From: Alcanivorax sp. DSM 26293
GTDB lineage: Bacteria; Pseudomonadota; Gammaproteobacteria; Pseudomonadales; Alcanivoracaceae
Reading direction: 5' to 3'
DNA length: 64,000 bases
NCBI RefSeq assembly: GCF_900107995.1
Contig: NZ_FNUM01000002.1
Span: 332,283 to 396,282 of the forward strand
Below, one piece after another: positions 30,210 through 37,573 of the stretch. Under the pieces are notes generated by a model. It had not been told where the DNA came from. It saw nothing but the letters and a program-made list of their open reading frames with translations, and did no database searches. A program made the position numbers and the translations under genes. Position 1 is the stretch's first letter, and each line of letters begins with the position of its first letter.

Positions 30210-31496
30210 TCATTCAGAGGCTCCCTTTGACGGGACCCGCCGCTGCTCTGGCGGGGTCCAGTCAAAGGGCACCTGATAACTCATCAGAAAGCCCCCCAGG
30301 GTAATCAATACCCGGGAGATGCCGATATAGGAATCGGGAATACTGATTCGCTCTTCCCGGAACCGCTGCATCAGCTCGCCCATGGCGGCCACCGGCCCCT
30401 GCTGATTGACCTTGTCAGTCAGCACAAAGAGTGCCAGCTCTTTCAGTGTTTCCGGGCTCCCGCCTTTAAAACCGGCCTGAACAAAGAGTTCGCCAATATC
30501 CACCTCGCCCTCAAAGCCCATCAGACCGTAAAGCAGTCGTGAGTAGCGACGGACCTGATCCGGCGTCAGCACCCCGATGGCACCGAAATCCAGTATCACT
30601 ACCTGACCCTGATCGTTGACCAGAAAATTGCCCGGGTGCGGATCTGCCTGGTAGACCCCGAAACGGGTCACCTGCTGCAAGTAACTGGTCAACAGTACCG
30701 AGAGCAGATCTTCTGCCTGTTCCGGATTCGCATCCAGATGGTTGCGCAATCGCTGGCCCTGCTCCCAGCTGGTAACCAGAATCCGTTCCGAGCACAGCCC
30801 ATCGATCAAATCAGGAATACGGATACGGTCATGATGGGGCTGGCGCGAAAAGCGCCGGGTATTGGCCGCCTCGTTACGAAAATCCAATTCCATGGCGGTC
30901 ATAATCAACAGTTGCTCGATGGCTTGTTTGAGATCGAACTCACGGAATCGGGGCGCCGCAATCGCTGCCAGAACCTGAAATACCTTTGCATCCTGCTCGA
31001 ACAGCTTGCTGACACCGGGCAGGCGCACTTTCACGGCCACATCCGTGCCATCCTCGAGGCGTGCGCGATGCACCTGGGCTATGGATGCGACCGCCACCGG
31101 GGTTTCTTCAATCCAGCGAAACCGCTCACGCCAGTCCCGGCCCCAGGATTTCCTCAACACCTTTTCGATGCGTGCAAAGGAAACCGGCGCCGCGTCATTC
31201 TGCAACGCCTGGAACGCTTCAATATATTCCTGCGGCAGCACGTCCGGTCGGCAACTGAAGAACTGGGCCGCCTTGACCCAGAACGCACCATTACGACGAC
31301 ACAGAGCCGCCAGAATATCTGCGCCCCGGCAATGCCGTTGATGTCGGTCGTCCTTGCCAACCCCCCCGGCATAGACAGCCGCCACACGAGACATGGCTGT
31401 CAGGGCACGTAAATAACGGGTTCTTCCGGCGGCGAGACCACTGACACCGGCAATACTTTCTCTCATCATCTGGGTGTAATCGTTATGGTTATTCAT
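30210..31496 (-). CDS. AarF/ABC1/UbiB-family atypical kinase
   Basis: The 428-residue protein has the UbiB-like core: a KxGQ-like segment WVKAAQFFSCRPDVLP, the alanine-rich nucleotide loop VAVASIAQVHRA, VAVKVRLPG with the invariant Lys, ADPHPGNFLV (catalytic region) and ILDFGAIG (metal site). The Gly of KxGQ is replaced by Ala. There are no obvious C-terminal membrane segments, unlike UbiB itself, so this is a paralogue rather than the ubiquinone operon member. Family members support isoprenoid-lipid metabolism through ATPase activity. The specific role is unknown. Confidence 0.85.
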   Translation of the reverse strand: MNNHNDYTQMMRESIAGVSGLAAGRTRYLRALTAMSRVAAVYAGGVGKDDRHQRHCRGADILAALCRRNGAFWVKAAQFFSCRPDVLPQEYIEAFQALQNDAAPVSFARIEKVLRKSWGRDWRERFRWIEETPVAVASIAQVHRARLEDGTDVAVKVRLPGVSKLFEQDAKVFQVLAAIAAPRFREFDLKQAIEQLLIMTAMELDFRNEAANTRRFSRQPHHDRIRIPDLIDGLCSERILVTSWEQGQRLRNHLDANPEQAEDLLSVLLTSYLQQVTRFGVYQADPHPGNFLVNDQGQVVILDFGAIGVLTPDQVRRYSRLLYGLMGFEGEVDIGELFVQAGFKGGSPETLKELALFVLTDKVNQQGPVAAMGELMQRFREERISIPDSYIGISRVLITLGGFLMSYQVPFDWTPPEQRRVPSKGASE

Positions 31497-35463: not shown

Positions 35464-35787
35464 TTAATCCCAATCGTCGCCGTAGTCGTGGAGCAGCTCT
35501 TCGCCGGGCTTGATGGACTTGAGGGCCACCACGGTCAGGTCGTCATAGTAAGCTACGTTGGGCTTCTTGCCGTGGTTGATGAAACGCAGATCGCACAGCA
35601 CCCGGTAGCGCTCATTGCCCTCGTCATCCAGCGATAACACATAGGGGCCATCTTTTTTGGCAGGCTTGGTTTTACACAGACCCAGCTCGGTCCCCTTCTT
35701 GATAGGCAGGCTGGCAAAGAGGCCTCGGCCATGGACTGCGCTTCGGCGCACTTCCAGTAAATCGTCACGCAGGTAGGGTTTTGGCAT
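35464..35787 (-). CDS. Stand-alone SET-domain protein
   Basis: The 107-residue protein is almost entirely a SET domain: SAVHGRGLFASLPIKKG at the start, LCDLRFINHGKKPNVAYYDD with the NH-x-C/K-PN type pocket, and KPGEELLHDYGDDWD at the end. SET domains are protein-lysine methyltransferases, common in eukaryotes and sporadic in bacteria. It lacks pre- and post-SET regions. The target is unknown. It is divergent from the dehalogenase-alkyltransferase fusion gene across 89 bases. Confidence 0.88.
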   Translation of the reverse strand: MPKPYLRDDLLEVRRSAVHGRGLFASLPIKKGTELGLCKTKPAKKDGPYVLSLDDEGNERYRVLCDLRFINHGKKPNVAYYDDLTVVALKSIKPGEELLHDYGDDWD

Positions 35788-35876
35788 TTTTTTGCACTTT
35801 ACGTTGATAACACGGCCATGGCATCTTGCCAGAAAAGCGCTAACAGTTGAAAAATTCGATGCAAGGGATGCATGTC

Positions 35877-37298
35877 ATGGGTTTTGCGGATTTTCCATTT
35901 GAGTCACGTTTCGTCACGCTGAATGGGCATCGCCTGCATTACATCGATGAAGGTGAAGGACCGCTTATTCTGTTCATCCATGGCAACCCCACATCCAGTT
36001 ATCTGTGGCGTAATGTCATCAAACCCCTGCGCGGCAAATACCGCTGTATTGCCCTGGACCTGATCGGTTTCGGCAAAAGTGACCAGCCCGACCTGGATTA
36101 CCGCTTTCTCACCCATTACCAGTACCTGGAAGAGTTCGTTGCCGCCCTGGCACTCACCGATATCACCCTGGTTCTGCACGATTGGGGCGGTCCGCTGGGC
36201 TTCCGTTTGGCTCAACAGCATCCCGGGAAGGTCAGCCGTCTGTGTTTTATGGAAACCTTCCCGTTCACCTTTGACTGGGATGAATTCCCCCTGCCCTTGC
36301 GGCCCGTTTTCTTTGCCTTTCGGCAGGAACGGCTGGGCCGGTTTCTGATCATCAACCGTAACCTGTTTGTCAGGATGGTGCTGCCCTTCGGGGTTATCCG
36401 CCATCTGCCACGCAGTGTCAGACGTATCTATCAACGTCCTTTTCGTCAGCGCGAGTCCCGCTATCCGGTGTATGTCTGGCCCAACCAGTTGCCGATCAAT
36501 GATCGTCAGGATGAAACCTGGCAAGCCATCGAGCAGATTGAAAAGGGCCTCAGACGCATGTCGCAGCCCATGCTTTTATTGCGTTTTCGCCCTGGCGCAG
36601 TACTCGGCCCGGCTCGAATCCGTTGGTTGCTGGACCAGATCCCCAATCTGGATATTTCCGATTGCGGACGCGGACTACACTATGTGCAGGAAGATAACCC
36701 CAAGGCCATCGCCGAGGCGATCGGGCAATGGCTTCAACCCCCTGCACAAACTGACACTGGGCAATCGCCCGCGTCAGCCGCTCACCGCATTTATCAGTCC
36801 GATGATTATGCGGATTCACTAACCTGGTACTACGGTGAAAGCGGTTACGGCAACGCCCTGGTCGCCGAGTCGCCTCATGGCTTGATCCATTTCGATTTCT
36901 GTGACCACAAGGACGACGCTGTGACCAGATTGAAGCAGCGCTTTCCGGATGCGTGCCTTAACGAGCAGCCGACCCCTGCACTGCTCTCGGCCCTGGAAAA
37001 CCCGGGCACCTCGCACGCCCCATTGCATCTGTGCGGAAGCTCATTCCAGCGTCAGGTTTGGCACGCCTTGCTCGACATCCCCGCCGGCAGCACCCGGCAC
37101 TATGGTGACATTGCCCGGCAAATAGGCAGCCAGGCGCGGGCTGTCGGGCAAGCGGTGGGCAAGAACCGCCTGGCAATACTGGTACCTTGCCACCGGGTTA
37201 CCCGTGCCGATGGTAGTGCGGGCGGCTTTTACTGGGGCGCAGAGTTGAAACAGCAATTACTGGAGCAGGAGCGAACCACAGCAGGACATACCCCATGA
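35877..37298 (+). CDS. Haloalkane dehalogenase-O6-alkylguanine-DNA alkyltransferase fusion
   Basis: One continuous frame of 473 residues (ATG at 35877, AAGGG 9 bases upstream) joins two complete enzymes. Residues 1-285 are a haloalkane-dehalogenase-type alpha/beta hydrolase: His35-Gly-Asn37-Pro in FIHGNPTSSYLW, nucleophile Asp102 and Trp103 in LVLHDWGGPLGF, Glu126 in CFMETFPF at the HLD-II acid position, and the catalytic His in GLHYVQEDNP. Residues 300-473 are a DNA alkyltransferase (Ogt type) with SFQRQVWHALLDIPAG, an HTH region, and acceptor Cys438 in LVPCHRVTRADG. Both active sites look intact. It could couple breakdown of alkylating haloalkanes with DNA repair. The joint function is inference. 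Confidence 0.88.
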   Translation: MGFADFPFESRFVTLNGHRLHYIDEGEGPLILFIHGNPTSSYLWRNVIKPLRGKYRCIALDLIGFGKSDQPDLDYRFLTHYQYLEEFVAALALTDITLVLHDWGGPLGFRLAQQHPGKVSRLCFMETFPFTFDWDEFPLPLRPVFFAFRQERLGRFLIINRNLFVRMVLPFGVIRHLPRSVRRIYQRPFRQRESRYPVYVWPNQLPINDRQDETWQAIEQIEKGLRRMSQPMLLLRFRPGAVLGPARIRWLLDQIPNLDISDCGRGLHYVQEDNPKAIAEAIGQWLQPPAQTDTGQSPASAAHRIYQSDDYADSLTWYYGESGYGNALVAESPHGLIHFDFCDHKDDAVTRLKQRFPDACLNEQPTPALLSALENPGTSHAPLHLCGSSFQRQVWHALLDIPAGSTRHYGDIARQIGSQARAVGQAVGKNRLAILVPCHRVTRADGSAGGFYWGAELKQQLLEQERTTAGHTP

Positions 37299-37573
37299 GA
37301 ATCCCTGATACCGGCAAACGGCCGCCCCAAAGAAAGGTATATCGATCCGCACCATCGGGAGAGGCTGATGTCATGCCTGCAATCCGGCCAAATATCATCT
37401 GCTGCAGGCCTGCAGGTATCAGCCGGTTTTACCGGCTTCGGGCTGATGCTGGCTCCCGGCACCATGGGAAATTTCCCTGTTTGGCCTTATCATCTTCCCC
37501 GGAAGCGCCGGCTGGGCAGGCTGGCTTATGTTTGTATCCCGCCGTTTTCTGCGGGAATGGGAGTAACTGAACA
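37299..37573 (+). pseudogene. Possible degenerate small membrane-protein gene
   Basis: The 275-base gap between the fusion gene and the M48 gene has no convincing ORF with a start. One frame ending at a stop at 37566-37568 encodes a membrane-protein-like tail (PWEISLFGLIIFPGSAG, then WLMFVSRRFLREWE) but is closed upstream by a stop and has no start codon. A second frame supplies hydrophobic residues just before it (AAGLQVSAGFTGFGLMLAP). This could be a frameshifted remnant or chance. Confidence 0.25.

Follow-up and report, generated by a model that had tools for sequence, protein, structure and literature searches.

Haloalkane dehalogenases (HLDs) of the HLD-II type, such as DhaA/HaloTag, LinB and DadB, are single-domain proteins, and O6-alkylguanine-DNA alkyltransferases (AGTs) are known from Ogt and from the C-terminal domain of Ada. 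HaloTag and SNAP-tag, which belong to these two families, are man-made labels with altered active sites. Here, we describe a gene in which an HLD and an AGT are joined in a single reading frame. The gene (35877-37298, plus strand) lies in a 64,000-bp stretch of the genome of Alcanivorax sp. DSM 26293 (contig NZ_FNUM01000002.1), referred to below as the window. The host is a marine oil-degrading bacterium, and its family is marine as well.

DadA of Alcanivorax (Alloalcanivorax) dieselolei B-5, a protein of 294 amino acids with the HLD-II pentad, is an orthologue of the HLD half of the fusion, with 60% identity and the same locus, and it ends after the dehalogenase. Natural AGT fusions are named in a review (PMC10779285), namely AGT-EndoV of Ferroplasma acidarmanus and the histone-like AGT-2 of C. 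elegans. In both of them, as in the gene described here, the AGT domain is joined to another functional domain, but their partners act on or bind DNA, whereas the partner in our gene is a small-molecule hydrolase. The word "haloalkane" is absent from the main text of that review (PMC10779285). In the open-licence literature, no natural dehalogenase-alkyltransferase fusion is named in the titles or abstract beginnings among the matches listed; an automatic annotation may well exist. The engineered HaloTag/SNAP-tag fusions join the same families but do not share descent of the fusion. Both families are known; their pairing in one protein is new and has so far been seen in a single bacterial family.

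The fusion gene and its two halves

The uninterrupted frame encodes one protein of 473 amino acids with a computed mass of 54.0 kDa. It starts at the ATG at 35877 or at an in-frame TTG at 35847, which would add 10 residues to the N-terminus, and it stops at 37296-37298. The ATG is preceded, 9 nt away, by the block AAGGG (35863-35867, plus strand), which is the probable ribosome-binding site and is also present in four other Alcanivorax fusions (L002-L005). Conservation was counted in an alignment of 12 complete fusions from three genera. A search for the MGFAD start found it in all 12, the window's protein counted, and none of the frames contains an internal stop. The claim of the first-pass annotation that one frame fuses a dehalogenase with an alkyltransferase was borne out by full-length fusions in 12 genomes, its own among them, and the residues N37, D102, W103, E126, H268 and C438 are placed as it had given them. 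Its assignment to the families of HaloTag and SNAP-tag also held, as HaloTag entries matched the HLD half and SNAP-tag entries the AGT half.

Residues 1-288 (35877-36740, plus strand) form the dehalogenase half. This part scored 316.8 bits against the haloalkane dehalogenase profile NF002938 (cut-off 241), which was exceeded in 12 of 12 fusions, and the solved structures matching it are the ancestral AncHLD5 and variants of DhaA. The HLD-II pentad, that is, N37 (35985-35987), D102 (36180-36182), W103 (36183-36185), E126 (36252-36254) and H268 (36678-36680), all on the plus strand, is complete and invariant in the 12 fusions. The fold, the pentad and the motifs HGNPTSSYLWRN and GLHYxQED are shared with DhaA/HaloTag, LinB and DadB; the fusion differs in the added alkyltransferase and in having DWGGP in place of DWGSA after the nucleophile. 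An AlphaFold model of the fusion, built with nine sequences, reached a mean predicted local distance difference test score of 62 and a predicted template-modelling score of 0.54, with most of the AGT catalytic part below confidence. In a Foldseek search of the model, the first half matched haloalkane dehalogenases with a template-modelling score of 0.84 by target length, so that the HLD fold is confirmed at the level of the model. Judged by profile and active site, the first half is an HLD-II-type haloalkane dehalogenase.

The two halves are separated by a linker of residues about 289-308 (36741-36800, plus strand), the length and sequence of which vary among the relatives in the alignment. 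The AGT half then begins with a diverged, putative N-terminal domain of the ribonuclease-like type (residues about 309-385; 36801-37031, plus strand). It should be noted that Pfam recognized this domain (PF02870) in only 1 of the 12 fusions, with an E-value of 0.003, and that the alignment to the Ada C-terminal domain (PDB 1sfe) nevertheless spans the region. The N-terminal domain is less conserved among AGTs generally, according to the review (PMC10779285).

The catalytic, DNA-binding domain follows (residues about 386-468; 37032-37280, plus strand). The AGT half scored 104.9 bits against PF01035 (cut-off 27, exceeded in all 12 fusions) and 100.8 bits against TIGR00589 (cut-off 46.4). It is closer to the Ada C-terminal domain (NF011964, 105.8 bits; 1sfe, E-value 2.9e-25) than to Ogt (NF007626, 66.9 bits). 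The score against NF011964 compares with a cut-off of 345 for the whole profile, and the alignment is limited to positions 188-350 of 354. The regulator half of Ada (the N-terminal zinc/phosphotriester domain and the AraC-type domain) had no Pfam match in the fusion protein, which carries the dehalogenase instead. The first-pass annotation had described a complete Ogt-type domain with Cys438; the acceptor cysteine and the complete site stand, whereas the Ogt type does not, as the second half is, by profile and structure match, an Ada-C-like O6-alkylguanine-DNA alkyltransferase.

The PCHRV acceptor C438 (37188-37190), the arginine finger R421 (37137-37139), the hinge asparagine N430 (37164-37166) and E465 (37269-37271), all on the plus strand, are invariant in the 12 fusions; PCHRV, the arginine finger and the asparagine hinge are shared with Ada and Ogt. 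Since C438 is present and PWHRV is not, the domain is not an alkyltransferase-like (ATL) protein. All 12 fusions also have W453 (37233-37235, plus strand), which aligns with the tryptophan at the pocket rim of Ada. This Ada residue is named as the likely cause of the restriction to small alkyl groups in the review (PMC10779285), and W453 thereby predicts small alkyl adducts as the substrates. In the alignment of AGTs (A4), the hinge asparagine is followed by arginine in the fusion, while the other AGTs, apart from the stand-alone protein of genome G020 (see below), have NP, NT, NS or NK. The fusions and the G020 protein are two residues shorter just before the arginine finger than the other rows, but this shortening is not unique to them because a protein of another family (L110) also appears shorter there.

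The selection on the parts of the gene was estimated from the ratio of nonsynonymous to synonymous divergence (dN/dS) in 8 chosen pairs of 66 possible, using simple NG86 counts with dS above 0.8 in some pairs. The ratio was 0.04-0.20 in the dehalogenase half, 0.13-0.36 in the AGT N-terminal domain and 0.07-0.18 in the AGT catalytic domain. For the linker, the ratio was computable in 6 of the 8 pairs and amounted to 0.36-0.83. The low ratios in the halves against the high ones in the linker indicate that both active halves are under purifying selection and that the tether is loose.

Distribution and history of the locus

The same domain order was looked for in 46 genomes of the family, the genome of the window (G000, Alcanivorax, 3.7 Mb) among them. 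The full-length fusion was found in 12 genomes, namely 5 of 17 of Alcanivorax (the window's included), 6 of 13 of the genus g3 (to which Alloalcanivorax venustensis belongs) and 1 of 2 of the genus g7. In a 13th carrier, G062 of g3, the gene is split: its dehalogenase and alkyltransferase parts run off two different contig ends, and both frames are open. The dehalogenase alone, 294 amino acids long, is present in four g3 genomes (G025, G029, G057 and G064). No copy was found in the two remaining g3 genomes, G059 and G061; the latter has a completeness of 86%, and the locus itself was not located in it. The draft genome G010 carries one complete fusion and two divergent pieces at contig ends (contigs C73, C104 and C160; L003, L059 and L067), and the extra pieces come either from a second gene copy or from a bin in which strains are mixed. 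Among the closest records are those of Alcanivorax jadensis T9 (82%) and of two Alcanivorax metagenome genomes (83%).

Profile searches then covered samples of the order (390 genomes), the phylum (398) and the class (369), which overlap and include family members. Full-length matches occurred in 5, 2 and 1 genomes of the order, phylum and class samples, all of them inside the family. No fusion was seen outside the family in these samples at the strict limits used (1e-60, 1e-60 and 1e-80, with at most four candidates scored per genome), at which a distant fusion could be missed. A pattern scan of 84,980 species (one genome each), which finds close relatives only, yielded ten loci. Four are full-length fusions, a fifth (L034), which shares a draft genome with L031, is a fusion interrupted by the end of a contig, and the other five match the dehalogenase half only, one of them (L040) being short and partial. 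Of 72,556 plasmid records, 1599 matched, and one of these, which is not among the matches listed, has a joined match to 80% or more of the query; of 50,697 phage records, 33 matched and none covered over 80% of the query. In Psychromonas (L038 and L039), two stand-alone haloalkane-dehalogenase-like genes and a third partial match lie within about 8.5 kb.

The fusion occupies a fixed chromosomal site. It follows the genes for Lon, an RluA-type pseudouridine synthase and a divergent SET-domain protein, and in many relatives it precedes a UbiB/ABC1-kinase gene. The distance from the start of the fusion to the Lon gene is 1.1-1.4 kb in 13 of 13 carriers, the split one included. The SET-domain gene (35464-35787, minus strand; PF00856) adjoins the site in all 17 Alcanivorax genomes and so marks it. 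All 12 fusion-less Alcanivorax genomes have RluA, SET and UbiB side by side, and neither a dehalogenase nor an alkyltransferase was matched between them, the spacer between SET and UbiB being 92-462 bp. At the same site, G029 has the dehalogenase alone and G020, of the genus g5, has the alkyltransferase alone, a protein of 174 amino acids with PCHRV kept. An MsrA-like frame, named from the reading of its sequence, is present at the site in the four genomes looked at of the seven of genus g4.

In the maximum-likelihood tree of the dehalogenase halves, 13 fusions and the 4 stand-alone copies form one clade (100/100), within which the stand-alone dehalogenases group with the g3 fusions (96/93). 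The 13 fusions and the G020 protein likewise form one clade in the tree of the alkyltransferase halves (100/99), where the branches leading to G020 and G028 are long and their placement is not certain in detail. The tree of Lon from 26 loci places the fusion in two deep clades, g1 with g3 (98/96) and the g7 group (88/90), the latter of which also contains fusion-less genomes. The gene-less genome G059 retains the bases before the start of the fusion and its first codons (ATGGGTTTCGCC, M-G-F-A), after which the sequence changes; to judge from this sequence, the remnant is a deletion scar. As the site holds the fusion, either half alone or nothing, and G059 has its scar, we conclude that the fusion arose long ago and has broken down several times. 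The simplest account of the site and the trees would be one old fusion within the family, later lost whole or by halves.

The place of DadA in the tree beside the g3 fusions would most simply reflect the loss of the alkyltransferase half. We take G029 to be A. dieselolei B-5 on account of the length of its gene and of a second, LinB-like HLD in that genome. The stand-alone AGT of G020 (L141, 9207-9731) starts with MNLFADLP, which resembles the fusion start MGFADFP. It may be a fusion from which the dehalogenase was deleted from inside, or the resemblance could be chance.

Two other histories were considered. A recent horizontal gain by Alcanivorax is not the favoured history, given the shared site in three genera, the two deep Lon clades with carriers and the scar in G059; the clade of five Alcanivorax species may still have gained the fusion from a relative at the same site. 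A pair of adjacent HLD and AGT genes as the precursor was rejected, as no AGT match was found in the flanks of 25 stand-alone HLD loci, which include 5 DadB-type copies inside the family.

Among dehalogenases, only the fusion exceeds the NF002938 cut-off in the five Alcanivorax carriers, and none does so in the 12 non-carriers. An Ada-length AGT match (frames of 351-461 amino acids) and a short one (103-183 amino acids) are present in each Alcanivorax genome, with the exception of G016, which has a single AGT match in all; the carriers have the fusion besides, and in all five of them it is the only full-size AGT match apart from the Ada-length one. In the window genome, the Ada-length match has an Ada-type cysteine motif and the short match (L092 on C7, outside the window) is an ATL with PWHRV. 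The same assignment, long match as Ada type and short match as ATL, is taken to hold for the other Alcanivorax genomes by extrapolation.

Spacer and downstream neighbours

The spacer between the SET-domain gene and the fusion contains the perfect palindrome TGGCA-TCT-TGCCA (35819-35831, plus strand), a possible promoter or operator element and the only TGGCATYTTGCCA in the 3.7-Mb genome. The pattern TGGCA-N3-TGCCA is also present in all 13 fusion-less spacers tested (those of 12 Alcanivorax genomes and of G059); therefore, the palindrome is not specific to the fusion. In G007 and G013 (L135 and L136), the SET-UbiB spacers carry inserts of 285 bp and 266 bp between identical 24-bp inverted repeats, which resemble a small mobile element.

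Downstream of the fusion lies a remnant of the UbiB/ABC1-kinase gene (37295-37570, plus strand), consisting of its 5' start and 3' end only and having no Pfam match. In four other Alcanivorax carriers, an intact gene of 553 amino acids follows the fusion and overlaps its stop codon (ATGA), whereas in A. venustensis (L035) it is likewise missing at the fusion site. An obligatory functional tie between the two genes was rejected, as the fusion occurs without UbiB in the window and in L035, and UbiB without the fusion in 12 of 17 Alcanivorax genomes. A second, different ABC1-kinase-like gene of 428 amino acids (30210-31496, minus strand; PF03109) has relatives in related loci.

Possible joint function

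We consider a joint role of both halves against small alkylating haloalkanes to be the preferred reading of the sequence, with a probability of roughly 0.55. The dehalogenase half would convert small haloalkanes by hydrolysis into alcohol and halide, with an alkyl ester at Asp102 as the intermediate, and the AGT half would move methyl- or ethyl-size groups from O6-alkylguanine onto Cys438, once. The same threat would be met before the DNA is hit, by the dehalogenase, and after it, by the alkyltransferase. The halves would behave as beads on a string, be produced in a fixed ratio, and the alkyltransferase could carry the dehalogenase to DNA. The first-pass annotation had proposed a functional pairing against alkyl halides such as methyl halides. 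The pairing fits the chemistry but is not obligatory, the dehalogenase standing alone in four genomes and the alkyltransferase in one, and nothing in the sequence points to methyl halides. A report on the HLDs of A. dieselolei describes DadB as active, with a preference for brominated and C2-C3 substrates (PMC3938430). A reactivation of the spent Cys438 by the dehalogenase was also considered and rejected as chemically implausible, on the reasoning that a thiolate is a poor leaving group.

Several observations weigh against a joint role. Each half survives alone at the site and 12 of 17 Alcanivorax genomes lack the gene, which indicates that the coupling of the halves is dispensable and not obligatory. 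The unconserved linker gives no indication of a fixed interface, and the AlphaFold model is too weak to judge contact between the halves. Among the neighbours of the fusion at the locus, neither a regulator nor a gene of a haloalkane pathway was seen. Renilla-type luciferases retain the pentad, so that the pentad alone is no proof of dehalogenation. Moreover, all 17 Alcanivorax genomes encode a separate HLD-like protein under the NF002938 cut-off (about 169-183 bits), and the fusion may therefore not be the only dehalogenase of the carriers. DadA itself was insoluble in E. coli and was not analysed further in its report (PMC3938430).

Some of these points would equally suit an accidental join, in which both halves are active and serve unrelated needs, the use or detoxification of haloalkanes and everyday alkylation repair, with co-expression as the only gain. 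This explanation is a possible one, which we hold to be clearly the less probable. Each half has been kept alone at the site (DadA in four genomes, AGT in G020), the linker is loose, and the AGT half would be useful by itself as the Alcanivorax carriers have no other full-size AGT besides the Ada-length one. Separation of the halves is easy here, as the losses at the site show, and in spite of this the fusion has been kept on both sides of a deep split, in g7 (88/90) and in g1 with g3.

A more specific form of the joint role would have the AGT bring the dehalogenase to DNA, so that haloalkanes are destroyed there and escaped damage is mended in the same chain. It would include the destruction of dihaloalkanes that turn the AGT cysteine into a DNA cross-linker. 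We regard this chain of events as tentative and rather doubtful. If it were true, the fusion would be, to our knowledge, the first detoxifying hydrolase tethered to a DNA-repair protein.

The hazard of dihaloalkanes could also be the whole purpose of the fusion, the tethered dehalogenase destroying compounds such as 1,2-dibromoethane near DNA before Cys438 turns them into cross-links. In published work on AGT (PMC8024977), 1,2-dibromoethane reacts with the cysteine, which then becomes cross-linked to DNA, and additional AGT makes the toxicity higher in both bacterial and mammalian cells; a dehalogenase near the AGT would remove this hazard. The preference of DadB for brominated and C2-C3 substrates, given in its report (PMC3938430), is in line with such a task. 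However, the Ada-length AGTs of the same cells carry no dehalogenase, and the narrow Ada-like pocket with W453 may react less, which makes self-protection as the sole role improbable.

Even less probable is a role of the AGT half outside repair, in which it tethers the protein to DNA, senses alkylation or helps the dehalogenase to fold. The divergence of the AGT N-terminal domain would fit it, as would the inclusion bodies that stand-alone DadA formed in E. coli, according to its report (PMC3938430). Yet Cys438, Arg421, Asn430 and Glu465 are invariant in the 12 fusions although a tether would need no cysteine, and PCHRV is retained in the G020 orthologue, which has no dehalogenase joined to it. 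Finally, a sequencing or assembly artefact joining two genes, such as the indel that the first-pass annotation had warned of, can be rejected with near certainty, since 12 genomes from three genera, close and less close relatives among them, have the complete fusion, and others carry half of it or nothing at this site.

If the joint role is true, the removal of an alkylating agent and the repair of its damage would be linked in one chain, with both halves coming from well-studied families of covalent enzymes. Whatever the role, the fusion offers an explanation of the insoluble DadA as one half of a broken fusion, which suggests its full-length relatives as the proteins to express. Within the family, the site in its four states, with the fusion, each half alone or nothing, provides a natural set of controls.
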